NCBI RefSeq assembly: GCF_000025345.1 | Contig: NC_013757.1 | Span: 310,001-374,000, forward strand | Length of the DNA stretch: 64,000 nucleotides | Direction: 5' to 3' | From: Geodermatophilus obscurus DSM 43160 | GTDB lineage: Bacteria; Actinomycetota; Actinomycetes; Mycobacteriales; Geodermatophilaceae | The notes under the pieces: generated by a model | The model's input: only the letters and a program-made list of their open reading frames with translations | What the model was told of the DNA's origin: nothing | Databases searched by the model: none | Translations under genes and position numbers: made by a program | Part shown: positions 5,437-60,013 of the stretch, piece by piece | Position numbering within the stretch: the stretch's first letter is position 1 | Layout: every line of letters begins with the position of its first letter

Positions 5437-6360
5437 GTGCCAGTGATCCCCGGGACCGACCTCACCGTCAGCGACCTCTGCCTGGGCGGCAACGTGTTCG
5501 GCTGGACGGCGGACGAGCCGACGTCCTTCGCCGTGCTGGACCGGTTCACCGACGCGACGGTCAGCACCCTGGCCCCGTTCGTCGACACCGCGGAGTCCTA
5601 CGGCCGAGGCGCGTCGGAGGAGATCCTCGGCAACTGGATGACCGAGCGGGGCCTGCACGACCGGATGGTGGTGGCGACCAAGGCGTCGCGCCTGGAGAAG
5701 GAGCACCCGCTGTCGGCGGCGGAGATCCGGACGGCGGTCGAGGGGTCGCTGCGCCGGCTGCAGACCGACCGGATCGACCTCTACTACGCGCACTACGACG
5801 ACGGGAGCACGCCGCTCGAGGAGACGCTGCGTGCCTTCGACGAGCTCGTGCAGGCGGGCAAGGTCCGGTACGTCGCGGCGTCGAACTACTCGCCGGACCG
5901 GCTCACCGAGGCGCTGGAGACCTCCGGGCGGCGTGGGCTGACCCGGTACGTGGCGCTGCAGCCGCACTACAACCTCATGGAGCGGGCGGTCTACGAGGAC
6001 GGGCTGCGCGACGTCGTGGCCGCCCACGAGCTGGGCGTGCTGCCCTACTACGCGCTGGCCAAGGGCTTCCTGACCGGCAAGTACCGGGCCGGTGAGCAGG
6101 TCGACTCGCCGCGGGCGGAGGGCGCCTCGGCCTACGTGGGGGAGCGCGGCGACCGGGTGCTGGCCGCGCTGCGGCAGGTGGCGGAGGCGCACGGGGTGAC
6201 GGTCGCCGCGGTGGCGCTGCGCTGGCTGGCCGACCGTCCGACCGTCGTCTCGCCGATCGCCAGCGGCCGGTCGGTGGAGCAGCTGGCCGACCTGCTGCCC
6301 ATGCAGGACCTGGTGCTCACCGAGGAGCAGACGCAGGCGCTGGACACCGCCTCCGCCTGA
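5437..6360 (+). CDS. Aldo/keto reductase
   Basis: NADPH-dependent (beta/alpha)8 oxidoreductase of 307 residues. Family features seen: FVDTAESYGRGASEEILG (catalytic Asp and Tyr), VVATKAS (catalytic Lys), IDLYYAHYDD in the place of the catalytic His strand, and a C-terminal IASGRSVEQLADLL cofactor-binding segment. This is the Tas/YajO-like branch with no obvious specific substrate. GTG start at 5437 has only a weak upstream AGGG. Monocistronic, convergent with the EAL gene. Confidence 0.9.
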   Translation: MPVIPGTDLTVSDLCLGGNVFGWTADEPTSFAVLDRFTDATVSTLAPFVDTAESYGRGASEEILGNWMTERGLHDRMVVATKASRLEKEHPLSAAEIRTAVEGSLRRLQTDRIDLYYAHYDDGSTPLEETLRAFDELVQAGKVRYVAASNYSPDRLTEALETSGRRGLTRYVALQPHYNLMERAVYEDGLRDVVAAHELGVLPYYALAKGFLTGKYRAGEQVDSPRAEGASAYVGERGDRVLAALRQVAEAHGVTVAAVALRWLADRPTVVSPIASGRSVEQLADLLPMQDLVLTEEQTQALDTASA

Positions 6361-6442
6361 GAGAGGACGCCGTCCTCCCCACCGTTCGCAGGCTCAGGGC
6401 GGGGCCCGGGACGGGGCCGACGAAGGCAGGGGAGGTCCTCTC
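6361..6442. repeat. Hairpin module between convergent genes, copy 5 of 8
   Basis: Fills the gap between two convergent stops. An outer inverted repeat GAGAGAGGAC / GTCCTCTCTC brackets GTCCTCCCCACC, CGGGGCCCGGGACGGGGCC. Symmetric position and structure fit a bidirectional terminator. Confidence 0.6.
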
Positions 6443-7531
6443 TCAGGAGCGGGCGACGGCCGTGGCGAGGTCCTCGACGCGCAGCAGGCCCACCACCGCG
6501 CCGGAGGCGTCGGTGCACAGCACCGGGTCGAAGCGCTGCGCGGCGGGCCGCGTCACCGCCCGCTGCAGCGTGGCGGCGACGTCGTCCGTGGGGGAGGCCT
6601 GGAGCGACACCGGCGCCAGGTACGGCGCCCCGGTCCGCGGGCAGGCCAGCCACAGCGCCACGGGCTCGCCCCGTCCGCCCACCAGCACCGCCGGCGGGAC
6701 GGCGGACGGCGGCTCGCCGGCGTCGGACTGGCGCACCGGCCGCACGAGGGCGGCCACCCCGCGGGTCACCTGCGCCCGGGCGGCGTGCGTGCGGACCAGG
6801 GCGGCGACCTCGGGCGCCAGCGGCGCGAAGCCGGACGCTGGCCGGCCGAGCAGCCAGCCCTGCGCCAGCGGCACGCCGAGCCGGGTCAGCGCGGCCAGCT
6901 CCGCGACGGTCTCGACACCCTCGGCCAGCAGCCGGGCGTCGATGCGCCCGGCGAACTCGCCCACCACCTCGGCGAGCGCGGTGCGGACCGGGTCGGTGTC
7001 CACGCCGGTCACCAGGGCCCGGTCCAGCGTCACCAGCCGAGGGCGGACGGCGGCCATCTGCTGCAGGCCCGAACCGGCGTCGTCCAGCGCGACGAGGGCC
7101 CCGCGGGTGCGCAGCGCGTCGGTCTGCCGGCGCAGCGCGTCGAGGTCGTCGGCGGGCGTGTGCCCGGTGAGCTGGACGACGACGCGGTGCAGGTTCGGCC
7201 GGGCGGCGAGGGCCTCCTGGACCGGGGCGCTGCCGAGCAGGTGCGGACTGACGTTGACGGTGAGGAACGTGTCGGCGGGCAGCAGCGGGACGACGGCCAG
7301 GGCCTTGGCGATCGCCAGTGCCTCCAGCTCGGCGGCCAGGCCGCAGTCGGAAGCGGCGGCGGACCAGACGCCGGGGCCGGCGGTGCCGGGGAAGCGGGAG
7401 AGCGCCTCGTAGCCCACGACGCGCACCGCGGCGAGGTCGACGATCGGCTGGAACACCAGCGTCAGGTCGTCGGGGTCGGCGAGCAGCGGACGGCAGTCGG
7501 GCAGGCTGCTCACCGGGGGGCCGTCATGCAC
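6443..7531 (-). CDS. EAL domain protein, probably catalytically inactive
   Basis: A 362-residue protein whose N-terminal two thirds is an EAL (c-di-GMP phosphodiesterase) fold: FQPIVDLAAVRVVGYEALSR at about residues 27-46, then LDDAGSG, and LAEGVETVAELAALTRLGVPLAQGWLLGRP. Two positions normally needed for metal binding or catalysis look changed: the strand usually ExTE reads VVQLTG, and the lysine of KIDR reads TLDR. It may therefore bind rather than cleave c-di-GMP. The last ~100 residues look like a small CBS-like ligand domain ending DASGAVVGLLRVEDLA. GTG start at 7531 (alternative 7513). Divergent from the sensor phosphatase gene. Confidence 0.8.
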   Translation of the reverse strand: MHDGPPVSSLPDCRPLLADPDDLTLVFQPIVDLAAVRVVGYEALSRFPGTAGPGVWSAAASDCGLAAELEALAIAKALAVVPLLPADTFLTVNVSPHLLGSAPVQEALAARPNLHRVVVQLTGHTPADDLDALRRQTDALRTRGALVALDDAGSGLQQMAAVRPRLVTLDRALVTGVDTDPVRTALAEVVGEFAGRIDARLLAEGVETVAELAALTRLGVPLAQGWLLGRPASGFAPLAPEVAALVRTHAARAQVTRGVAALVRPVRQSDAGEPPSAVPPAVLVGGRGEPVALWLACPRTGAPYLAPVSLQASPTDDVAATLQRAVTRPAAQRFDPVLCTDASGAVVGLLRVEDLATAVARS

Positions 7532-53412: not shown

Positions 53413-54282
53413 ATGACGGACATCGACCTCGGCACCGCCTACACCTGGGACGACGCCCGGTCCCGAGGCGCTACCCGCGGGCAGATCGCCCAGGACGGCG
53501 TCCGGCTCGGCCGCGGCCTCTACCTCTCCTCCGTCGTCGAGCCGGACCTCGCCACCCGGTGTCGCGCGTGGCAGCTGGTGCTCCCGCGCGACGCCGCCTT
53601 CGGCCTGGGGACGGCGGCCCGGCTGCACGGAGCGCCGATCGCGGAGCCGCCCACCGTGCACGTCGTCGTCCCCTCGCGGCGGCAGCTGCCCAGGCGCGCG
53701 GGGCTGACCGTCCACGAGCGGCTCCTCGCCGAGGAGGACGTCGTCGTGGTCGGCGGGCTGTCGCTGACGTCGGGCCCGCAGACGTTCCTCGACCTCGCCG
53801 CCGGGCTGCCACCCGCGGAGCTCGTGGCGGCCGGCGACGCCCTGCTGCGCGCGGAGCGGATGGACGCCGCGTCGCTGGCCCGGCGCCTCGAGCGGGCCGA
53901 CCGCGTGCGGGGCGTCGTCCGTGCCCGTGGGTGCGCCCCGCGGCTCGACGGGCGAGCGGCTTCGCGGCCGGAGAGCCTGGTCCGCTACTGGCTGGCGATC
54001 AGCGACCTGCCCGACCCGCAGCTGCAGGTGCCGGTGCACGACCGGTGGGGTCGCGAGGTGACGCACGCCGACCTGGGCTACTCGGAGTGGAAGGTGGCGC
54101 TGGAGTACGAGGGGCGCCAGCACGCCGACCCCGACCAGTTCGGGCGGGACGTCGACCGCTACTCGCTGATGGCCGCCGACGGGTGGCTGGTCCTGCGCTT
54201 CGCCGGCCGGCACCTCGGCAGCCCCGTCGTCGTGGTGGACCGCACCCGGCGAGCGCTGTCCAGTCGCGGCTGGCGCCCCTGA
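53413..54282 (+). CDS. AbiEi-antitoxin-like / DUF559 endonuclease-domain protein
   Basis: A 289-residue protein of a large actinobacterial family. The N-terminal part WDDARSRGATRGQIAQDGVRLGRGLYLS is an AbiEi-type winged-helix-like domain. The C-terminal part from about 215 is a Vsr/DUF559-like PD-(D/E)xK nuclease: THADLGYSEWKVALEYEGRQHADPDQFGRDVDRYSLMAADGWLVLRF, with Asp and Glu/Gln positions in place. No partner toxin gene is next to it. Flanked on both sides by near-identical 68-bp elements. Confidence 0.8.
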   Translation: MTDIDLGTAYTWDDARSRGATRGQIAQDGVRLGRGLYLSSVVEPDLATRCRAWQLVLPRDAAFGLGTAARLHGAPIAEPPTVHVVVPSRRQLPRRAGLTVHERLLAEEDVVVVGGLSLTSGPQTFLDLAAGLPPAELVAAGDALLRAERMDAASLARRLERADRVRGVVRARGCAPRLDGRAASRPESLVRYWLAISDLPDPQLQVPVHDRWGREVTHADLGYSEWKVALEYEGRQHADPDQFGRDVDRYSLMAADGWLVLRFAGRHLGSPVVVVDRTRRALSSRGWRP

Positions 54283-54334
54283 CGCGAGGCGTCACCGATC
54301 GACCGCCTCGACCCGCGACCCCCTGTCCCCGAGT

Positions 54335-54402
54335 TGATCATGGGCTCGTTGCAGGCGACACGCGGCGACGCGCCGACGGAGCCGGCAACAACCCCATGAT
54401 CA
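54335..54402. repeat. 68-bp inverted-repeat element, copy G
   Basis: TGATCATGGGCTCGTTGC ... GGCAACAACCCCATGATCA, 68 bases. The inner 32 bases are almost the same as those of copy F, suggesting a recent shared origin. Upstream of the formate dehydrogenase operon. Confidence 0.88.
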
Positions 54403-54557
54403 CGGCCGAGGGGGAGGGGAAGGCGGAGGGGGATGGCGGGACGGGGAGGGGGACGTGCGGAGGTCAGGCCGGACGGCGGAACCGCAACGGACCGTTGTCG
54501 TCGGCGACCGCGGGTCCCGGAGCGCCGAGTGGGCCCAGGAGTGGCAGAGTTGCCGGT

Positions 54558-57500
54558 GTGAAGACCTGGCTCGACGCGTGGCCGGTGTTCCGGCAGCTGA
54601 CCGGTGCCGACCCCCTCGGACGCGGCCTGGCCGCGCGCAGCAAGGCGACGGAGAACGTGGTGAGCCGCACGGCCACCGCCGACCGCGTCGTGCAGAGCGT
54701 GTGCCCGTACTGCGCGGTGGGGTGCGGCCAGCGGATCTACGTCAAGGACGAGCAGATCGTCCAGATCGAGGGCGACCCGGACTCGCCGATCAGCCGCGGC
54801 CGGCTGTGCCCCAAGGGCAGCGCCAGCAAGCAGCTGGTCACCAGCCCGACCCGCGTGACGACGGTGAAGTACCGCCGTCCGTTCGGGACGGAGTGGGAGG
54901 ACCTCGAGCTCGACACGGCGATGGAGATGATCGCCGACCGCGTCCTCGAGGCCCGCCGCAAGGGCTGGCAGGACGAGAACGACGGCAAGCGCGTCAACCG
55001 CACCATGGGAGTAGCGAGCCTCGGAGGGGCGACCCTCGACAACGAGGAGAACTACCTCATGAAGAAGCTCTACAGCGCCCTGGGCGCGATCCAGATCGAG
55101 AACCAGGCCCGCATATAGCACTCCGCCACGGTGCCCGGTCTGGGTGCCACGTTCGGTCGTGGCGGTGCCACGAACTTCCAGGAAGACCTCGCGAACTCCG
55201 ACTGCATCGTCATCGAGGGTTCGAACATGGCCGAGTGCCACCCGGTGGGCTTCCAGTGGGTGAGCGAGGCCAAGGCGCGTGGCGCCAAGGTGATCCACAT
55301 CGATCCGCGGTTCACCCGCACCAGCGCGATCGCCGACCTGCACGTCCCGCTGCGGATCGGCACGGACATCGCCTTCCTCGGCGGCCTCATCCGGTACGTG
55401 CTGGACAACGACCTGTACTTCAAGGAGTACGTCGTCGCCTACACCAACGCCGCGGCGCTGGTCAGCGAGCAGTTCGTCGACTCCGAGGACCTCGACGGCC
55501 TGTTCTCCGGCTTCGACCCGGAGAGCAACACCTACGACGAGGCCAGCTGGCAGTACGAGCCGGAGGAGCCCCCGCACTCGGGCTCCGACGACCCGGCCGG
55601 GGCCGCGGCGCAGGACCGCAAGGAGCAGGACCCGGAGATCAAGAAGACCGACAAGGCCCAGGCGGCCGGCAGCGGCGGCCCGCCGATCGCGGCCAAGCCC
55701 AAGCGCGACGAGACGCTGCAGCACCCGCGGTCGGTGTTCCAGGTCCTCAAGCGGCACTTCGACCGCTACACCCCGGAGATGGTGGCCGAGGTCTGCGGCA
55801 TCGAGCCGGAGGTGTTCCTCCAGGTCGCCCGCTGGGTGACCGAGAACAGCGGCCGCGAGCGGACGACGGCGTGGGTGTACTCGGTGGGCTGGACGCAGCA
55901 CAGCGTCGGCGCGCAGTACATCCGCACCTGCTCGATCCTGCAGACGCTGCTGGGCAACATCGGCCGCCCCGGCGGCGGGATCCTGGCGTTGCGCGGGCAC
56001 GCCAGCATCCAGGGCTCGACCGACGTCCCGACGCTGTACAACCTGCTGCCGGGCTACCTGCCCATGCCGCACGCGCTGCAGCACGGCGACCTCGACGAGT
56101 ACTGCGCCGACGCGGCCGGCAAGGCCGGGTTCTGGGGCAACAAGCGCGCCTACATGACCAGCCTGCTCAAGGCCTGGTGGGGCGACGCCGCGACACCGGA
56201 GAACGACTTCGCGTTCGACTACCTCCCGAAGATCGACGGTGACCACAGCTCCTACCGGACGATCGCCGACATGATCCAGGGCAAGGTCTCTGGCTACTTC
56301 CTGGTCGGCGAGAACCCGACGGTCGGGCACCCCAACGGGCGCATGAACCGGTTCGGCCTGGCCAACCTGGACTGGCTGGTGGTCCGCGACCTGCAGATGA
56401 TCGAGTCGGCGACCTTCTGGAAGGAGTCCCCGGAGATCGAGACCGGGGAGCTGGCGCCCGAGACGATCGGCACCGAGGTCTTCTTCGTGCCCGCGGCCTC
56501 GCACGCGGAGAAGGAGGGGACCTTCACCCAGACGCAGCGGCTGCTGCAGTGGCGTCACAAGGCAGTCGAGCCGCCGGGTGACGCCAAGAGCGACCTGTGG
56601 TTCTACTTCCACCTCGGCCGCCTCCTGCGCGAGCGGCTGGCCGGCTCCACCGACCCGCGGGACCGGCCGCTGCTCGACCTCACGTGGGACTACCCGACCC
56701 ACGGGCACGACCAGGAGCCGAGTGCCGACGCCATCCTGCGAGAGATCAACGGCACCGGCCCGGACGGGCGTGCGGTGTCGGGCTACCTGGAGCTGAAGGA
56801 CGACGGCTCGACGTCGTGCGGCTGCTGGATCTACTCCGGCGTCTACGCCGACGAGGTGAACCAGGCCGCCCGCCGCAAGCCCGGCCGCGAGCAGGGCTCG
56901 GTGGCCTCCGAGTGGGGCTGGGCCTGGCCGTACAACCGGCGCATCCTCTACAACCGCGCCTCGGCCGACCCCGACGGCAAGCCGTGGAGCGAGCGCAAGA
57001 AGTACGTCTGGTGGGACGAGGGGGCCGGTCGCTGGACCGGTGCCGACAACCCGGACTTCGAGGCGACCAAGCGGCCGGACTACGTGCCGCCGGACGGCGC
57101 CAAGGCGCAGGACGCCATCGGCGGCGCCGACCCGTTCGTCATGCAGGGCGACGGCAAGGCGTGGCTGTTCGCGCCCGCGGGCGTGGTCGACGGCCCGCTG
57201 CCGACGCACTACGAGCCGGCGGAGTCCGTCGTCGAGAACGCCCTGTACAAGCAGCAGGCGAACCCGACGCTGGAGCACATCGAGGGGCCGTGGAACCGGG
57301 AGAACCCACCGCTCTCCGACGTCTTCCCGTTCCAGGTGACCACCTACCGGCTGACCGAGCACCACACCGCCGGCGGGATGAGCCGCACGCTGCCCTACCT
57401 GTCCGAGCTCCAGCCGGAGTTCTTCGTCGAGGTCAGCCCGGAGCTCGCCGAGCTGCGCGGCCTGACCAACGGCGAGTACGCCACGCTGGTCAGCTCGCGG

Positions 57501-57848
57501 ACGGCGATCGAGGCGAAGGTGCTGGTCACCGAGCGGATCCGCCCGATCCGGCTGCGGGACGGGCAGGTCGTGCACCAGATCGGGATGCCCTACCACTGGT
57601 CCTACAGCGGCATCTCGACCGGCGACGGGGCCAACGACCTGCTCGGGATCGTGCTCGACCCGAACACGCACATCCAGGAGGACAAGGTCAGCACCGCCGA
57701 CATCCGCCCGGGACGGCGACCGCGCGGGCCCGAGCTCATCGAGTTCGTGGAGGGCTACCGGCAGCGTGCCGGTGTGCCGTCCGGGCGGGTCGGGGTCAAC
57801 GGCCGCGACCCGGTCGCCGCCGAGGCCGGCGAGGGATCGAAGCTGTGA
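54558..57848 (+). CDS. fdhA: Formate dehydrogenase alpha subunit, selenoprotein with UAG-encoded selenocysteine
   Basis: Molybdopterin enzyme oxidising formate to CO2, FDH-N/O type, 1,096 residues if the single in-frame TAG (55116-55118, codon 187) is read. The N-terminal 4Fe-4S ligands are C49, C52, C56 and C84 (SVCPYCAVGCGQ; GRLCPKGS). The TAG follows IENQARI and precedes HSATVPGLGATFGRG, the exact place of selenocysteine in E. coli FdnG (NQARVU-H-GPTV). The frame then stays open for 910 codons, with GSNMAECHPVGFQWV, GWTQHSVGAQYIRT and NRRILYNRASADPDGKPW. A stem-loop with GGUCU loop follows (separate entry). No Tat motif is present, unlike FdnG. An Ala/Lys/Pro-rich insert of about 50 residues follows residue 330. 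GTG start 54558. First gene of fdhA-fdhB-nrfD. Confidence 0.93.
55116..55148 (+). promoter_or_regulatory. UAG selenocysteine codon and bacterial-type SECIS stem-loop
   Basis: TAG at 55116-55118. Then 55130-55136 GGTGCCC pairs with 55142-55148 GGGTGCC (five Watson-Crick pairs, two G-U) around the loop GGTCT at 55137-55141. The loop starts 18 bases after the codon, which by my recollection of the fdhF sequence is the same distance as in E. coli fdhF, whose GGUCU-containing loop is bound by SelB. Confidence 0.85.
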
Positions 57849-57900
57849 GCCCGCGAGGAACCGAAGCCGTGAGCACTCGAGCGGCAGACAGGAGACCGGC

Positions 57901-58968
57901 GTGACCTCGGTCAGTTCGGCGAGCCCGGCCTTCACCGGGCGCGATCCCGACAACCGGCTGTACGGGCCGCTGCCCGACGTCCAAGGCGAGGCCGGGTACG
58001 ACGGCGACCACCCGGCGCGGGTGGGCTTCTTCACCGACACCTCGGTGTGCATCGGCTGCAAGGCCTGCGAGGTGGCCTGCAAGGAGTGGAACTTCCTGCC
58101 GATGGACGACGCGCACGGCGTGCGCGATGTCATGGGGCTGTCCGGGATGTCCTACGACAACACCGGTCAGCTGGGCGCCAACTCCTGGCGGCACGTGGCG
58201 TTCATCGAGCAGACCCGCACCGTCGACCTGCCGATGCCGACGTTCGGCCGCCCGGGTGACGACCGCCAGGACCACGGTCGCTCGGTCACCGACGGCCCCA
58301 ACGACGAGAGCCTGGCGACGGCGCAGCAGTCCAGCGTGCTCAACGCGGAGGCGCTGAGCGAGTTCGACCCGCAGACCGGTCAGTCGGGCACGGACAAGCA
58401 GATCCGCTGGCTGATGAGCTCCGACGTGTGCAAGCACTGCACGCACGCCGGGTGCCTCGACGTCTGCCCGACCGGCGCGCTGTTCCGCACCGAGTTCGGC
58501 ACGGTGGTCGTCCAGGGCGACATCTGCAACGGCTGCGGCTACTGCGTGCCGTCCTGCCCGTACGGCGTCATCGAGCAGCGCAAGGGCGACGGCCGGGTCT
58601 TCAAGTGCACGATGTGCTACGACCGGCTCACCGACGGCCTGCAGCCCGCGTGCGCGACCGCCTGCCCGACGCAGTCGATCCAGTTCGGCAACCTCGACGA
58701 GCTGCAGGCCCGCGCCGACGCGCGGCTGGCCACGCTCAAGTCGCAGGGCGTCGAGACGGCTCGCCTCTACGGGCGCGACGAGGACGACGGCGTCGGTGGT
58801 GCAGGGGCGTTCTTCCTGCTGCTCGACGAGCCGGAGGTCTACGGCCTGCCGCCGGACCCGATCGTCACCACGCGCGACCTGCCCGCGATGTGGAAGTCCG
58901 CCGGCGCGGCTGCGGCGATGATCCTCGGGGTGGCGCTGTCCGCCGTCCTCGGCTCGCGGAGGAAGTAG
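57901..58968 (+). CDS. fdhB: Formate dehydrogenase iron-sulfur (beta) subunit
   Basis: Electron-transfer subunit with four 4Fe-4S clusters, 355 residues. Cysteine motifs in order: CIGCKACEVACKEWN (from C50), CKHCTHAGCLDVCPTGAL, CNGCGYCVPSCPYGV and CTMCYDRLTDGLQPACATACPT, as in FdnH. An extra segment of about 60 residues (GRPGDDRQDHGRSVTDGPND) separates clusters one and two. One C-terminal membrane helix, SAGAAAAMILGVALSAVLGSRRK, anchors it. GTG 57901 with AGGAG upstream. Its stop is TAG used as a normal terminator. Confidence 0.95.
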   Translation: MTSVSSASPAFTGRDPDNRLYGPLPDVQGEAGYDGDHPARVGFFTDTSVCIGCKACEVACKEWNFLPMDDAHGVRDVMGLSGMSYDNTGQLGANSWRHVAFIEQTRTVDLPMPTFGRPGDDRQDHGRSVTDGPNDESLATAQQSSVLNAEALSEFDPQTGQSGTDKQIRWLMSSDVCKHCTHAGCLDVCPTGALFRTEFGTVVVQGDICNGCGYCVPSCPYGVIEQRKGDGRVFKCTMCYDRLTDGLQPACATACPTQSIQFGNLDELQARADARLATLKSQGVETARLYGRDEDDGVGGAGAFFLLLDEPEVYGLPPDPIVTTRDLPAMWKSAGAAAAMILGVALSAVLGSRRK

Positions 58969-58972
58969 TCGC

Positions 58973-60013
58973 ATGACTGAGGGCATCACGACGCCGGGCG
59001 CCGGCTGGCGGCGGGCGGACGGGCCGCCGGCACAGAAGCGGCAGAAGCGCCGCCGCCGACGCGGCGGCGGACGCCCCGGCGGCGAGGTGGCGATGGTCGA
59101 GGAGGCCGAGTTCACCTCCTACTACGGCCGGCCGATCATCAAGCCGCCGGTGTGGAAGACGCCGGACGTGCCGCTGTACCTCTTCCTCGGCGGCGCGGCC
59201 GGTTCCTCGTCGATCATGGCGGCGCTGACCGACCTCACCGACCGGCCGGCGCTTACCCGCAACGCCCGCTACGTCTCCGGTGGCGCGGCGATCGCGTCGG
59301 TCGTGTTCCTGGTCCACGACCTCGGCCGGCCCGAGCGGTTCCTGCACATGCTGCGGGTGATCAAGCCGACGTCCCCGCTGTCCATCGGCTCGTACATCCT
59401 GGCGCCGTTCAGCGCAGCGGCCGGTGCGACGGCGGCGGTGGAGCTGCTGGGCTGGTTCCCGCGGCTCAAGCGCTTCGGCGGCGTGGTCGCGGCACTGTTC
59501 GGCGGCCCGCTGGCGACCTACACCGGGGTGCTGTTCTCCAACACCGCCGTCCCGTCGTGGCACGCTGCCTACAAGGAGCTGCCGTTCGTCTTCGGCGCCT
59601 CCGGGATGGCCGCCGGCGGCGGCATCACGATGGCGCTCAGCCCGATCGAGGAAGCCGGGCCCTCGCGCAAGATGGCGGTGGCCGGCGCGGCGATCGAGCT
59701 GGCCGCGATGCACCGGGTCGAGACCGGGTTCGGCATCGTCAGCGAGCCGTACCACGAGGGCAAGGCGGGCCGGCTGCTGCGCGCGGCGAAGTCCTGCACC
59801 GCGGCCGGCGCGGCGCTCACCGTCGTCGCCGGACGGCGGCGTGCGGGCGCGGTCGCCGCGGGCGCGCTGCTGGCGGCCGGGTCGCTGCTCACCCGCTTCG
59901 GCGTCTTCGAAGCGGGCATGGCCAGCGCCCGGGACCCGAAGTACACCGTCGTCCCGCAGCGCGAGCGGCTCGCCGCACGGGGGAACGGGCCCGCGCCCTC
60001 CGTCACGCGCTGA
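58973..60013 (+). CDS. nrfD: NrfD/PsrC-type membrane subunit of formate dehydrogenase
   Basis: Integral membrane protein of 346 residues likely passing electrons to (mena)quinone without the cytochrome b of FdnI. Eight or so helices begin after residue 66 (PLYLFLGGAAGSSSIMAALTDL), with the NrfD pattern VFLVHDLGRPERFLHMLRVIKPTSPLSIGSYIL and GPLATYTGVLFSNTAVPSWHAAYKELPFVFGAS. An unusual N-terminus carries a run of nine basic residues (KRQKRRRRR, from about residue 22). ATG 58973, 4 bases after the fdhB stop. Confidence 0.92.
   Translation: MTEGITTPGAGWRRADGPPAQKRQKRRRRRGGGRPGGEVAMVEEAEFTSYYGRPIIKPPVWKTPDVPLYLFLGGAAGSSSIMAALTDLTDRPALTRNARYVSGGAAIASVVFLVHDLGRPERFLHMLRVIKPTSPLSIGSYILAPFSAAAGATAAVELLGWFPRLKRFGGVVAALFGGPLATYTGVLFSNTAVPSWHAAYKELPFVFGASGMAAGGGITMALSPIEEAGPSRKMAVAGAAIELAAMHRVETGFGIVSEPYHEGKAGRLLRAAKSCTAAGAALTVVAGRRRAGAVAAGALLAAGSLLTRFGVFEAGMASARDPKYTVVPQRERLAARGNGPAPSVTR

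Follow-up and report, generated by a model that had tools for sequence, protein, structure and literature searches.

The window that we analysed is a stretch of 64,000 nucleotides from Geodermatophilus obscurus DSM 43160 (NC_013757.1, positions 310,001 to 374,000), a bacterium of soil and rock. It holds a gene for the alpha subunit of formate dehydrogenase (FDH; 54558–57848, plus strand), identified with Pfam and NCBIfam profiles, which encodes 1,096 residues with one UAG read through. The read-through protein contains the Pfam domains Molybdop_Fe4S4, Molybdopterin and Molydop_binding, and scored 1915.5 bits against NF041513 (formate_DH_Act; cut-off 1400) and 950.5 bits against TIGR01553 (cut-off 814.2). 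The GTG start at 54558 is placed solely by the alignment of most relatives from residue 1, and the open frame extends upstream. The same strand carries the FDH beta (4Fe-4S) subunit (57766–58968; Fer4_11 and TIGR01582), whose true start is not settled and whose top profile match, TIGR01582, reached 180.4 bits, under the cut-off of 334.7. An NrfD-type membrane anchor subunit follows (58973–60013, plus strand; PF03916 and PF14589), for which the profile search gave no NCBIfam match. Opposite the FDH gene, a 1,324-amino-acid antisense frame (54159–58133, minus strand) without a Pfam match is likely a shadow of GC-rich coding sequence. An ORF 5′ of FDH (53413–54282, plus strand) had a borderline match to an AbiEi antitoxin (22.2 bits, at the cut-off).

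The single internal stop of the 1,097-codon FDH frame is a TAG at codon 187 (55116–55118, plus strand), which we predict to be a selenocysteine (Sec) codon from the frame, PDB alignment and the codons of relatives. It is preceded by the residues ENQARI and followed by HSATVPGLG. PDB alignments placed codon 187 opposite X of 1h0h, which we take to be Sec, and opposite C of 9qm0, read here as Sec from the entry name ‘selenocysteine-containing’, which puts the UAG at the Sec site of Desulfovibrio-type enzymes. The initial annotation had described both the lone TAG in this frame and its position at the Sec site of FDH relatives; re-reading the frame bore out the former, and the alignments to 1h0h and 9qm0 the latter. 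G. obscurus FDH shares its domains and Sec-site motif with the UGA-Sec enzymes E. coli FdnG and Desulfovibrio FdhA, but has UAG at this site and, judged by eye, lacks a twin-arginine pair before the Fe4S domain.

A mechanical ORF call yields 55131–57848 as an ORF of its own, and the genome report for G. obscurus G-20T lists 350 pseudogenes (PMC3035280). Both would suit a reading in which FDH is a pseudogene, or two genes that end and restart at the TAG. The comparison across Geodermatophilaceae speaks against this. FDH was present in 86 of 96 family genomes (E up to 1e-100). Among the 105 match rows listed, which were counted by hand, 99 span residue 187, and every one of these 99 has one TAG; four also have a TGA. 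Reading codon 187 directly in 37 family loci, including the four with both stops, gave TAG in 37/37. Full-length family rows other than the query are 64–98% identical to the FDH alpha subunit. The break also coincides with the Sec residue of relatives, and outside the family all 28 FDH loci that were read have TGA at the equivalent site. A decayed or split FDH gene is thus extremely unlikely, and we favour a single gene read through its UAG.

Several exceptions within these surveys were followed individually. Doubly recoded FDH was rejected for G019, G034, G091 and G030, where codon 187 is TAG and aligned residues 1–1086 contain no TGA; the TGA in these rows is most likely the gene end. In both FDH copies of G040 (L077 and L078), the DNA for approximately residues 169–201 and 180–201 is missing, and with it the Sec codon and the hairpin described below. 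The two gaps share their right-hand end point, where the frame changes, and G040 has a CUA tRNA. From the sequence, these gaps may reflect an assembly fault or a loss of the site. G084 has no readable FDH site because the contig ends there. In a class sample of 394 genomes, 109 had an FDH match at 1e-150, and beyond the 28 loci read directly, the remaining listed rows outside the family have TGA or no stop. UAG-encoded Sec outside the family was rejected for G465 and G404, both of which have TGA at 187; their TAG sits at 626 and 1080.

Bacterial SECIS elements typically have loops of the GGUCU type. Such a SECIS-like hairpin, GGUGCCC-GGUCU-GGGUGCC, with a 7-bp stem, lies at 55130–55148 (plus strand), +12 to +30 nucleotides past the codon, and is conserved in orthologues. 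It is found at the same position in UAG and UGA orthologues, including the UGA FDH orthologues of the same class, with the loop GGUCU in 56/59 and AGUCU in 3/59. Pairing was standard in 400 of 413 pair cells. In the 28 UGA orthologues paired changes preserve the stem, with one pair varying among G-U, C-G, U-G, U-A and G-C. When only distinct rows were counted, 248 of 259 cells were paired against a shuffle mean of 227, and none of 2,000 shuffles scored as high, with kinship between rows ignored. Covariation was weak in the UAG rows alone, where 31 of 2,000 shuffles reached the observed value, and 12 UGA rows have lost the outermost pair. In stability, the FDH hairpin exceeded neither shuffled sequence (z 0.53) nor synonymous controls (z 0.74).

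We then turned to the genome for a tRNA that could read this codon. The top tRNA-Sec match, at 1689368–1689459, has the anticodon CUA and scored 65.1 bits (Rfam, cut-off 47). The sole other match above the cut-off (48.2 bits) is the window's tRNA-Ser(TGA). The CUA tRNA gene belongs to a sel cluster with the order selD (minus strand), selC, a substrate-binding protein (SBP) gene, selA and selB, and SelA, SelB and SelD scored 405, 277 and 382 bits, each above its curated cut-off. A genome search for a CUA tRNA-Sec together with selA, selB and selD had been set beforehand as the test on which the Sec reading could fall; all of them were found.

A different UAG-reading tRNA might instead insert pyrrolysine, serine or glutamine, in which case FDH would not be a selenoprotein. 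ARAGORN labels the CUA tRNA at 1689368–1689459 tRNA-Pyl, G. obscurus is entered in a pyrrolysine paper of 2013 as ‘Verified by Infernal’ with the footnote ‘No UAG-anticodon’ (PMC3639795), and Gln occupies the Sec site in one metagenome relative of the SBP family. Against this, PylS (TIGR02367) gave nothing above cut-off in the genome, where it had two weak matches (24–26 bits); it also gave matches in 13 of 14 control genomes, one of them above cut-off. The tRNA exceeds the Rfam tRNA-Sec cut-off by the scores given above, its gene neighbours selD with selA and selB further downstream, and FDH orthologues outside the family use UGA. We consider insertion of another amino acid very unlikely.

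Together, the sequence comparisons make it very probable in our judgement that UAG 187 of the FDH alpha subunit is read as Sec by the CUA tRNA-Sec of the same genome, as we predict. SelA and SelD would load selenium onto the serylated tRNA, and SelB would bind the hairpin and bring Sec-tRNA to that UAG only, while other UAGs would still terminate genes. Of 29 long high-GC3 frames in the window, 27 end in UGA and two in UAG; this gene set is crude and counts the FDH portion 3′ of the UAG as one frame. Because UAG apparently still serves as a terminator, some early termination at codon 187 is expected. The codon might even act as a selenium- or growth-dependent switch, mostly terminating and read through as Sec only when selenium is ample. 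That some window frames still end in UAG fits this idea, as does the reported 30–40% efficiency of UGA recoding, which requires enough selenium (PMC4513850). It would apply, however, to any Sec codon and not to UAG in particular, and nothing in the sequence points to added regulation. We therefore regard such a switch as unlikely, and retain Sec insertion by the CUA tRNA-Sec as our reading of codon 187.

The CUA tRNA-Sec pattern was found in 87 of the 96 family genomes. The nine genomes without it all fall within the genera g5, g8 and g10, and none gave an FDH match at 1e-100; tRNA-Sec was read in seven of them (G024 and G033 are not among these), and its anticodon was UCA in all seven. Among the CUA genomes, only G072 (81% complete) gave no FDH match. 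Since TAG occurs with CUA inside the family and TGA stands at site 187 outside it, the codon follows the anticodon. One genome of the same genus, G015, has two tRNA-Sec genes (L080 1173–1263 and L081 3837–3928), one CUA and one UCA. The CUA copy adjoins selD, selA and selB, and the UCA copy is an orphan in a contig end that bears a transposase and is lower in GC than the remaining sequence of the contig (74–78% GC). No sel genes were found on this 69-kb UCA contig. FDH and UGSC have TAG in G015, and SBP is absent (three families were looked for). With TAG in both FDH and UGSC and a UCA contig on which no sel gene was found, dual coding in G015 is only a lead.

Beyond FDH, the G. obscurus genome contains two genes of the UGSC family, both of which carry D[UAG]GSC. 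The UGSC rows listed have one TAG or no stop, and TGA in none. A UGA form of UGSC was not seen inside the family, where the above-cut-off rows of the UCA genomes G018 and G031 have no stop.

The SBP gene of the sel cluster lies outside the window and belongs to a family in which 80/80 loci have a stop at the same fixed position (TGA in 67, TAG in 12 and TAA in 1). All 12 TAG loci are from Geodermatophilaceae, most of whose members of the family have TAG. The context of the site is GEGHW*VIDEPGPW, and the typical motif is HWU[VI]IDxPGPW. A fold test assigned the family to the SBP_bac_5 substrate-binding proteins. Members with the in-frame stop at the fixed site include L123 (6001–7698), L127 (approximately 5793–7490) and G000:C1:1689651–1691344. 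The G. obscurus gene, between selC and selA, carries UAG; relative to the 95% identical L123 it has a one-base gap that breaks the frame, so this copy is decayed or holds an error. The selC–SBP–selA operon occurs in two codes, UCA/TGA and CUA/TAG, and the UGA or UAG of the SBP site changes in step with the tRNA-Sec anticodon. In protein collections the family appears mostly as pieces, with 66–71% coverage in each of the 120 matches listed. P0125, a full-length metagenome relative, has Gln at the Sec site. An SBP search of the 394 class genomes at 1e-60 matched only the G. obscurus genome itself.

SBP, whose genes often lie beside sel genes, is probably an unlisted selenoprotein family, with Sec predicted at the stop. 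SaoB and SaoX, likewise predicted selenoproteins among the ABC-type substrate-binding proteins (PMC13188914), differ in their listed motifs, CUxxT and UxP. Neither of their profiles, NF040727 and NF040735, was listed for five SBP members at E up to 1, in a profile search that can drop weak matches. A SECIS common to the SBP family was not established from folds and synonymous controls. Individual members gave good folds (z −3.06 and −2.11); against synonymous controls, four UAG members gave −1.3 to −1.85 and three UGA members −0.46 to 0.04. For the UGA rows (67, of which 56 are distinct), the consensus fold was weak, at −3.8 kcal/mol. The lone TAA, at the SBP site of G008 (L167/L119), was considered as a UGA–UAA–UAG intermediate and rejected: the gene is taken as decayed because the tRNA-Sec there is UCA, the N terminus is broken and a further stop is present.

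To examine how the codon changed, we compared tRNA-Sec and SelA across these loci. From UCA to CUA genomes, the tRNA-Sec genes differ, among other changes, in the anticodon and in one pair of the anticodon stem (U-A to C-G). A SelA tree was built from 32 of 37 loci, after five with incomplete selA were dropped. In it, one branch (support 100/99) splits 24 CUA-side rows, with CUA read in all except L124, which yielded no tRNA, from eight UCA/UGA-side rows. The latter are four UCA family members, two UCA plasmids and two Pseudonocardia rows, which were assigned by the TGA of their SBP as their tRNA was not found. The UCA family members cluster with Pseudonocardia. This SelA tree, whose root is not settled, fits one switch. 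We propose a single ancestral change of anticodon, UCA to CUA, accompanied by that of the Sec codons, which would have taken place on the stem leading to the main clade of Geodermatophilaceae. It appears probable that the whole selenoproteome was recoded at once: tRNA-Sec would have gone from UCA to CUA on that stem, and FDH, UGSC and SBP from UGA to UAG, with SBP occurring across Actinomycetota, Bacillota and Pseudomonadota and selC–SBP–selA kept in both codes as a before-and-after pair. The odds that we give to a switch of the whole selenoproteome were lowered because no UGA-form UGSC was seen inside the family. Two plasmids, L243 (Tsukamurella) and L244 (Arthrobacter, conjugative), carry selB–selA–selC(UCA)–selD beside nrfD and a 4Fe-4S gene. 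We regard this plasmid sel cluster as a mobile selenocysteine module.

The finding in the window is already known in kind and in family. According to PMC5330540, three genomes with CUA tRNA-Sec were found, all of them Geodermatophilaceae, and Mukai 2016, cited there, described CUA tRNA-Sec with FDH and UGSC selenoproteins in this family; PMC5330540 further describes AhpC of B. saxobsidens as such a case. The initial annotation's statement that UAG-Sec is known in the family agrees with this account. The published system and ours share the family, the CUA anticodon and UAG at the FDH and UGSC Sec sites. The window gene itself shows no difference from what the available portion of PMC5330540 describes, and that portion does not mention the SBP family. 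The part that looks unreported is the SBP family, so the apparent novelty lies outside the window. A published list holds 119 selenoprotein families or subfamilies (PMC13188914), to which SBP, if a true selenoprotein, would add a family. The FDH gene is a clean case in which a stop codon has a second meaning, and gene callers split such genes. With CUA in 87 of 96 Geodermatophilaceae genomes and the operon present in both codes, the path from UGA-encoded to UAG-encoded Sec can therefore be studied directly.
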